This document shows, in pieces, positions 36,969-39,170 of a stretch of DNA of 64,000 bases; within the stretch, counting starts at the first letter, position 1, and every line of letters begins with the position of its first letter. The translations under genes were made by a program, and so were the position numbers. Origin of the DNA: Methanosarcina spelaei (GTDB lineage: Archaea > Halobacteriota > Methanosarcinia > Methanosarcinales > Methanosarcinaceae); contig NZ_LMVP01000112.1 of assembly GCF_002287235.1 (NCBI RefSeq), positions 1-64,000 on the forward strand, read 5' to 3'. A model generated the notes under the pieces. The model was not told where the DNA came from, did no database searches, and saw nothing but the letters and a program-made list of their open reading frames with translations.

Positions 36969-37132
36969 TCAAGCAGTTTTTTTAAACGGCTTGCGGTCAT
37001 TTTATCTTTATCAGTATTTTTCGCTCAAGCCTTTTTTTAAAAGGCTTGCGGGCAAGCAGTTTTTTTAAACGGCTTGTGATCAGGCCGTTACTATGGGTTT
37101 TTGATCAAACTTTTTTTGAAAAAGTTTGCGGT
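36969..37132. repeat. Cluster of four hairpin-forming dispersed repeats
   Basis: Four related units of about 30 bp, of the form CAAGC-T run-GCTTGCGG, lie at about 36969-36999, 37023-37052, 37052-37082 and 37104-37132. Each can form a stem around a T/A-rich loop (for example CAAGCCTTTT / AAAAGGCTTG). A fifth copy is at 56289-56311. They lie just beyond the stop of the radical SAM gene (minus strand) and may act as its terminator. Confidence 0.8.
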
Positions 37133-37147: not shown

Positions 37148-38239
37148 TTAGTTTTTCTCACTGTATTTCAAGAGGTTACTCTTGAAGTAATCCTTACTTA
37201 TGTTGTTTTTTCCAGGATAACAGCAGTAAGGGTTTTCAAATTTGGAATCCGTTGTAAAATAACAGGCTCCTCTGCATCCACCCCTGCAAATATCTCCTTT
37301 ATTGCAATCTTTGCAACTGCCTGTCAGCATACTCGTATCGAAATTTCTATTATAAGCAAAATTGCCTTCTTTATACCAGATTTCGGATAAGGATTCCTCA
37401 CGTAAATTACCTTCTATGAACTCGTCCGAATAGAGTGACTCGCAACCTTTAACATTGCCTGTACTACCTATCCCGACAACTCTCAAACCTGCCTGACATC
37501 CTGACCATGAGCATATTGTTCCGAACTCGCCCCTTAAGTATAATTCATTCTCATCAAAATATCCGATGTTGTCTCCTGCATAGATAGCAATCTTCTGTTC
37601 TTTACGCTTTTCTCGAATAAATCTGGTAATCAGGGGTACTTTTGCAGGGTCGAGGAGAAGATTTTTTTTATCGGCCATGTTTCCCATAGGGTTAACGATC
37701 TGCATCTGCCAGAGCTTTATTCCCTTTTCCACAAGTAAATCGTACATTGGCCATAAATCCTCAAAGTTTCTATCTATCAAACTGGTTACAATAGCTACAG
37801 GGATGCCTTCTTTGTTAAGTATCTCCAGGGCTTGCATTACTTTTTCGAACGAAGTGCTTACATTTCTCATATTGTTATGATTGCTTTCCATTCCGTCAAG
37901 AGAAATTCCCACGTTAGTTAGTCTGGCATATTTTATCTGGGCAATTTGTTCATTTCCAAGTAAAAACCCGTTGGTAATAAGATTAACAGCAACCCCTTTC
38001 TCAGATAACTTCCTTGATATTTTTTCCCATCCCTCATACAGAAAAACCTCGCCTCCAATGAGAGTTACCTGCTTGCATCCGAGATCTGCCAGTTGTTCGG
38101 CTACGTTAAGACATTCATCAACCTTGAGTTCATTTTCTCTAGCTTTTCCTGCTATAGAACCACAGTGCTTGCACTTCATGTTACATTTTAGTGTAAGTTC
38201 CCACACACAAAATTCAGGTTTGTATTCACTTGTATTCAT
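37148..38239 (-). CDS. Radical SAM/SPASM protein, candidate peptide maturase
   Basis: The protein has 363 residues. The radical SAM cluster motif is Cys19, Cys23, Cys26 in LTLKCNMKCKHC. LIGGEVFLYEG is the GGE motif that binds S-adenosylmethionine. The C-terminal third is a cysteine-rich SPASM-type domain for auxiliary iron-sulfur clusters (CSWSGCQAG, GNVKGCES, GSCKDC, DICRGGCRGACY, YCCY). SPASM enzymes mostly modify ribosomal peptides or make cofactors. A 45-codon ORF resembling a precursor lies 287 bases upstream on the same strand, supporting a RiPP maturase. The ATG has GGAG 8 bases upstream. No exporter or protease is adjacent. Confidence 0.9.
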   Translation of the reverse strand: MNTSEYKPEFCVWELTLKCNMKCKHCGSIAGKARENELKVDECLNVAEQLADLGCKQVTLIGGEVFLYEGWEKISRKLSEKGVAVNLITNGFLLGNEQIAQIKYARLTNVGISLDGMESNHNNMRNVSTSFEKVMQALEILNKEGIPVAIVTSLIDRNFEDLWPMYDLLVEKGIKLWQMQIVNPMGNMADKKNLLLDPAKVPLITRFIREKRKEQKIAIYAGDNIGYFDENELYLRGEFGTICSWSGCQAGLRVVGIGSTGNVKGCESLYSDEFIEGNLREESLSEIWYKEGNFAYNRNFDTSMLTGSCKDCNKGDICRGGCRGACYFTTDSKFENPYCCYPGKNNISKDYFKSNLLKYSEKN

Positions 38240-38371
38240 CTCTATTACTCCATAAGAGCAACCTGATCCGAAGCCTGTAAGATGGATCTGAGCATTCTGA
38301 CATTCTATTGATTTAAATATTATATTAAAAATATTATTCAGACTTTAATCTGAAAAAAGTTTAAAACATAT

Positions 38372-38388
38372 GGGGATATTAATTCCCC
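38372..38388 (-). terminator. Hairpin between precursor ORF and radical SAM gene
   Basis: The short stem GGGGA / TCCCC has a 7-base loop and is followed on the minus strand by AT-rich sequence containing T runs. It could partly stop transcription so that the small ORF is made in excess of the enzyme, as is common for precursor peptides (inference). Confidence 0.35.
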
Positions 38389-38526
38389 TCAAATTTTTTC
38401 CTATCAGGGTTTATGCATTTGCGAAACAAAGTCAAGAACATGTAAGCTTGTTAAAATCAGTACATTTTAGATTTTTGGTTTTTTGCTACTGATTTTGTCG
38501 TTCAACCCACAAGTTCTAGTTCAATT

Positions 38527-38664
38527 TCATTTTAGAGGCACACCGTATAAAGGTCTGACAATGCCGTAAAGAGGTACAGGTCGAGGTTCTGTTATCGGTA
38601 GTCCGATGTATACCTCTCCCCCGGACCCAGGATACAACATCAGAATATTTTTGCTAATAATCAC
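38527..38664 (-). CDS. Candidate RiPP precursor peptide, 45 aa
   Basis: The ORF starts at GTG (38664-38662) with GGAG 9 bases upstream and ends at TGA 38529-38527. The N-terminal part (ISKNILMLYPGSGGEVYIGL) would be the leader. The C-terminal 17 residues, PVPLYGIVRPLYGVPLK, carry the motif PLYG(I/V) twice. It is on the same strand as the SPASM radical SAM gene, with 287 bases and a small hairpin between them. The family was not recognised. Evidence for coding is the ribosome site, the repeated core and the neighbour. No transcription or conservation data could be seen. The Tyr and adjacent residues are the natural targets for cross-linking. Confidence 0.6.
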   Translation of the reverse strand: MIISKNILMLYPGSGGEVYIGLPITEPRPVPLYGIVRPLYGVPLK

Positions 38665-39170
38665 TATTTCACTCTCCTTTATCACTAATGTTGGTTAAAA
38701 CTGGATTGTGTAATTATTACTATTCAAGCAATATAATTAATAGGGAAATTCAATTTAGAAACATAAAGTCTTCTTAATTATCTATAAAGATGGCAAATAG
38801 TTATCAAAAAACAATAATTATTATCAAATTTAACTTATAGATTGCCAAAACTTCATTCCATTGGATAACTGCTTTGGGATAAATGAGAAAGGTCTGCTAT
38901 ATGAAGAAAGAGCTTTTGGGTACGTTTTTTCTATTAATCCGTTTTTTTGCATTCAAAATTAGTGAAGAATTTCAGGTAATTCCTGTTACTCTATTTCATA
39001 TCAACACACGAATATAATCTTTGAAGTCGCGGTAGAGACAGCAAAATATTGCAAATTGAAACCGGCAGCATGCAGGCCAGGTCATATTTCAACTGTGCAC
39101 AAAATTTTAGAATAAAATATAGTTTCTTCTTCATGCTTTAATGGATGTAAATTAAAAAAAAGTATGTTAG
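38665..39170. other. Gene-free stretch upstream of the precursor ORF
   Basis: 506 AT-rich bases. The minus-strand run TTATATTGC near 38735 could be the TATA box of the precursor transcript. A decayed copy of the TadC-like gene end lies at 39012-39095. Nothing else was supported. Confidence 0.5.
39012..39095 (-). pseudogene. Duplicated 3'-end fragment of the TadC-like gene
   Basis: This 84-bp stretch matches 42092-42172 (codons near the C-terminus of the secretion membrane protein) at about 80%, including the near-exact run GCATGCAGGC. It carries two single-base insertions relative to the intact gene, so it no longer encodes the same peptide. It lies 3 kb left of the intact copy, in the same orientation, with two secreted-protein genes between. 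Confidence 0.75.

Follow-up and report, generated by a model that had tools for sequence, protein, structure and literature searches.

Gene arrangement and conservation

The window analyzed here is a 64,000-nucleotide stretch of a Methanosarcina spelaei contig (NZ_LMVP01000112.1), to which contigs of Methanosarcina sp. UBA11020 and UBA289 are the closest that carry a name. Its minus strand holds a precursor peptide gene of 45 codons and a stop (38527..38664), which starts at GTG behind a GGAG ribosome-binding site (38674..38677) and whose product ends in PVPLYGIVRPLYGVPLK with a repeated PLYG motif, as originally predicted. A radical SAM gene (37148..38239, minus strand) begins 287 bases further on, at the distance and on the strand first reported. 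The precursor reading frame stays open upstream of the GTG in the window; we take the 45-codon start to be correct, since in the orthologue alignment the same codon is ATG in three relatives and a TAG stands just upstream of it in one. A purine-rich GGAG or GGATGG is retained at the ribosome-binding site in relatives.

When small ORFs beside homologues of the enzyme were surveyed, a check proposed with the original prediction, a PLYG-type ORF was found to adjoin the same radical SAM gene in six Methanosarcina genomes (the window, L017, L018, L019, L020, and L021). In pairwise codon alignments of the six precursor orthologues, dN ranged from 0.01 to 0.17 and dS from 0.09 to 2.8, dN was smaller than dS in every pair, and all length changes involved whole codons within the linker. 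These features lift the ORF beyond chance and, judged by its substitution pattern, mark it as a translated gene under selection, dN lying far below dS and not near the ratio of 1 that would have spoken against a coding role. A short conserved precursor is thus genetically linked to a modifying enzyme in the six genomes and in wider loci, and the original proposal of a RiPP-type precursor and a SPASM radical SAM maturase in an archaeon is supported by a conserved pair of genes under selection.

The intergenic gap contains a short hairpin (38372..38388, minus strand; 5-bp stem, −8.3 kcal/mol) that had been suggested to set the ratio of precursor to enzyme. The hairpin exists, but apart from the window it is intact in the near-copy L017 alone; this lack of conservation argues against a regulatory role, and the structure is probably not functional.

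No gene besides the precursor and the enzyme is kept across the non-syntenic loci, in which a protease, an exporter, and a partner protein were looked for, and the flanking genes that are shared belong to the Methanosarcina chromosomal background. So does a MATE-type efflux gene, which lies on the opposite strand at a distance of about 5 kb; the earlier remark that no transporter or protease lies nearby holds for linked genes. Queries with a Nostoc PlpY-like ORF and with PqqD matched nothing in the genome, a search in which short proteins are easily missed, and none of the neighboring ORFs is shared across the loci compared as a PlpY candidate. Short repeats of the type AAGCCGTTTAAAAAAACTGCTTG lie directly downstream of the radical SAM gene (37000-37120) and also occur in another genome, G015.

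A strong enzyme match was obtained in 10 of 31 Methanosarcina genomes, one of which (G003) belongs to a second archaeal group described below, and a class-wide search added close relatives in three further genomes. Relatives of the system are also present in Methanoperedens, and viral contigs yielded none. The system is decaying in two genomes: the enzyme gene is broken in G017 (L024), and in G015 (L063:2837-3277) an intact precursor is accompanied by an enzyme reduced to its last 49 residues. Within Methanosarcina, the locus is an accessory and patchy trait. The persistence of the ORF beside a 49-residue remnant would suit an enzyme that acts on another protein or a cofactor, the small ORF being an unrelated neighbor. 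We regard this as highly improbable, given that the two genes are linked in six close genomes, that the linkage recurs with the same motif and different leaders in more distant archaea and bacteria, and that G015 is most simply explained by a recent deletion of the enzyme gene.

The radical SAM/SPASM enzyme

The enzyme, a predicted splicease of 363 amino acids, has the CxxxCxxC radical SAM cluster motif at residues 19 to 26 (38162..38185, minus strand), seen in the sequence and the alignment, and a SPASM domain for auxiliary Fe−S clusters (37301..37498, minus strand; Pfam PF13186, residues 248 to 313, 4.4e-07), confirming the SAM motif and cysteine-rich SPASM domain first described. The SPASM cysteines C248, C266, C309, C312, C318, C322, and C339 are invariant in the alignment of archaeal and bacterial relatives. 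The best NCBIfam model, TIGR04103 (nif11-class peptide radical SAM maturase 3), which we take to be equal to IPR026482, scores 268 bits (1e-79) against a curated cut-off of 725, and the near-equal second model, TIGR03913 (GDL-motif maturase), scores 265 bits against a cut-off of 591.75. The PlpX splicease is a SPASM radical SAM enzyme of subclass IPR026482 (PMC11002830). The precursor leader matched no Pfam or NCBIfam model, and neither the Nif11-like leader that goes with TIGR04103 nor the DUF1843 match that goes with TIGR03913 was found in it.

In the phylogenetic tree, the archaeal enzymes form one clade (support 95/93) with Nostoc nif11_3, the GDL/DUF1843 enzymes, and enzymes of Agathobacter, Aegiribacteria, and Clostridia, which together with the TIGR04103 match relates the enzyme to PlpX. 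This XYG clade, so called after the motif discussed below, stands beside the second archaeal group, and six sister enzymes without such motifs fall outside it. Paralogues in this genome are remote: the two most similar radical SAM enzymes share 31% and 29% identity, and the nearest one likewise falls outside the clade. The enzyme ends about 24 residues past the last SPASM cysteine, while aligned bacterial relatives run on. An AlphaFold model based on nine archaeal sequences had a mean pLDDT of 53 and was set aside.

The precursor core resembles a splice tag

Residues 26 to 45 of the precursor constitute the core region EPRPVPLYGIVRPLYGVPLK (38530..38589, minus strand), which is almost invariant in the six genomes (consensus EPRPVPLYG[IV]VRPLYGVPL[KE]). 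It carries two conserved sites of the XYG type that characterizes spliceotide cores, L32-Y33-G34 (38563..38571, minus strand) and L39-Y40-G41 (38542..38550, minus strand), at both of which the PlpXY motif predicts tyramine excision. The natural sites of PlpXY are MYG and LYG, and the ten-residue PlpA2 core is a portable tag that works without a leader, tested as GGPIRPLYGLPI and as a GYG variant (PMC10533398). The window core matches this tag, PIRPLYGLPI: VRPLYGVPL and IRPLYGLPI are identical at 6 of 9 positions and conservatively exchanged at the other three, the longer stretch IVRPLYGVPLK shares R, P, L, Y, G, and P with the tag, and 1 of 2,000 shuffles equaled the match. Core conservation and likeness to the PlpA2 tag both support the idea that the repeated PLYG motif is the likely target of the enzyme. 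The precursor, whose family had not been recognized, is thus recognizable by a PlpA2-like core, while its leader does fit no known leader family.

XYG motifs beside related enzymes

Comparable motifs accompany other enzymes of the clade. The Nostoc Nif11 precursor ends in RGSIALYGLPPELF, including ALYGLPPELF; Azospirillum DUF1843 peptides carry RMLYGG and KPYGVA; an ORF next to the Agathobacter enzyme ends in FGPVMYGTGVRM with the motif VMYGTG; and next to clostridial enzymes lie PIRPLYGIEPPVRPLYGIEP and MLYGIQPLYGIKPLYGIA, precursors from Clostridia having the sequences NPPVRLFYGIKGPIIVDPIRPLYGIEPPVRPLYGIEP and TVKYGVMPKWPPIMLYGIQPLYGIKPLYGIA. Among archaea, the neighbors in G006 and G029 carry PVLKYGVV and VPMYGVI, Methanoperedens precursors carry VLLYGVRFP and IVKYGAPPV downstream of a YLTDWQ module, and G200 has tandem precursors with VRYG, LKYG, TLYG, and FRYG. 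Tandem precursor genes with repeated YLTDWQ leader modules and XYG cores are seen at L032:300-1300 (reverse complement), where a third copy is frame-broken. The archaeal leaders differ (SKNILxLYPG, TDGTIDEMN, and YLTDWQ modules) while XYG is constant, and over the whole clade, dissimilar leaders go together with a recurring XY plus small residue. The clade does not keep strictly to XYG, as KYR and KYA replace YG in the archaeal relative G209 (L034) and several clostridial relatives carry VYAGP. An automatic count of loci in which one nearby ORF on the same strand contains at least two XY(G/A) sites gave 19 of 25 in the clade and 1 of 15 among control radical SAM loci, or 17 of 25 against 1 of 15 once two ABC transporters (L072 and L075) were removed; the count is descriptive, because the 25 loci include six close relatives of one another, and the Fisher value calculated from it is subject to the same reservation.

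These loci bear on the kind of modification, for which cross-links with 2-Da losses had been expected. SPASM radical SAM enzymes form many such bonds on small peptides, and the conserved Tyr of the precursor would agree with cross-linking or a different oxidative modification of Tyr or adjacent residues. Such a reaction nevertheless seems unlikely here: the RPLYGxP core and the families closest to the enzyme are those of the splicease group, the core is free of Cys, and the clade shows variation at the positions near Tyr apart from the small residue that follows. Tyramine excision at XYG, with a loss of 135 Da per site, is instead what the family, the core motif, and the homologous loci indicate.

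The closest characterized counterpart is PlpXY/PlpA of Pleurocapsa sp. PCC 7319, which likewise has a nif11_3-type SPASM radical SAM enzyme and XYG (MYG, LYG) targets (PMC10533398, PMC11002830), its core PIRPLYGLPI corresponding to VRPLYGVPLK of the window. The window system differs in being archaeal, in an enzyme that lacks a C-terminal extension and is about 50 residues shorter, and in that no PlpY, no Nif11 or nitrile-hydratase-like leader, and no adjoining epimerase or other maturase was found. Clostridial loci of the same clade (G607, G573, and G548), which from their sequences are spliceotide-like, have repeated RPLYGI or PLYGIK cores, but their leaders are of the ELLDMVGG type and their enzymes, of about 510 to 530 amino acids, have a C-terminal extension. 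The GDL-motif peptide/DUF1843 systems resemble the window system in the near-equal HMM score; their LYG or PYG, however, lies near the N-terminus of a 55- to 65-amino-acid protein, in contrast to the C-terminal core of the window, and they have several paralogous substrates per locus. The closest bacterial enzymes, similarly short and up to 44% identical, come from the clostridial VYAGP-repeat loci (G804, G676, and G744) and group with the archaeal clade (support 95/88), although the candidate substrates there are long, have a zinc-ribbon tail, and contain VYAGP many times, a motif of the type XYA and not XYG. Next to the bacterial enzymes closest to the archaeal clade, such proteins with numerous VYAGPE/VYAAP repeats and the zinc-ribbon tail (L068:289-1401, reverse complement; L069; L074) are possible multi-site substrates with XYA in place of XYG.

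A putative archaeal spliceotide system

The locus is thus probably an archaeal two-gene spliceotide system, in which the enzyme would remove tyramine at each LYG. The short peptide would be translated, the radical SAM/SPASM enzyme would act on its two LYG sites, and at each of them tyramine (C8H9NO, −135 Da) would be excised and the chain rejoined, leaving an α-keto-β-leucine residue. The mature peptide would carry two ketoamides (...RPVPL*GIVRPL*GVPLK) and be 270 Da lighter than the precursor; two keto-leucine units are the most likely outcome because the window core matches the portable PlpXY tag. Counting against splicing are the score far below the TIGR04103 cut-off and its tie with TIGR03913, the dependence of PlpX on PlpY, for which no counterpart was found here, and the KYR/KYA and VYAGP motifs of relatives.

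As predicted from its genes, the splicease system looks minimal: a PlpY or RRE partner was not found, the leader is not of the Nif11 type, the enzyme lacks a C-terminal extension, and neither a protease nor an exporter is linked. Tentatively, one may picture a helper-free splicease of 350 residues, which would need neither PlpY nor an RRE, recognize its substrate chiefly through the core (RPLYGxP), and produce ketoamide peptides within methanogens, perhaps directed at their own or rivals' proteases, e.g., the proteasome. Protease inhibition has been reported for bacterial spliceotides (PMC10373908, PMC11117315), and a ketoamide that follows Pro-Leu would fit this activity; by analogy, it would most simply be the role of the product. 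Splicing would also be compatible with a product that serves as an intracellular regulator or stays protein-bound instead of being a secreted protease inhibitor. With no linked exporter or leader protease, the mature peptide could remain unprocessed, but patchy presence in the genus favors an accessory trait, and we hold an intracellular or protein-bound product to be possible but less likely than not.

To our knowledge, tyramine-excision splicing is a rare reaction so far described in bacteria. The published genome-mining list of Scott et al. 2022 reportedly holds 939 predicted splicease systems, and the Methanosarcina system would add to the known ones unless it is already among them; our search, outside which that list falls, found no literature naming both "splicease" and "Methanosarcina." Backbone splicing by tyramine excision has been reviewed as widespread in bacteria (PMC10373908), and experimentally validated archaeal RiPPs are few, mostly lanthipeptides (PMC12144867). 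If the prediction is true, this splicing extends to methanogenic archaea, where it takes an apparently minimal form with two genes; archaea would gain one more RiPP class, the recognition requirements of a splicease would become directly testable, and a small enzyme for putting ketoamides into proteins would be at hand.

In the second radical SAM group, which is the sister of the XYG clade, a conserved protein of 110 to 120 amino acids is encoded about 65 to 71 bases upstream (L036:981-1400, L037:194-535, L038:1017-1412, and L067:1038-1397, the last in reverse complement). This protein ends in ..NIADD..AGDYISLQNY.. and is free of XYG repeats.
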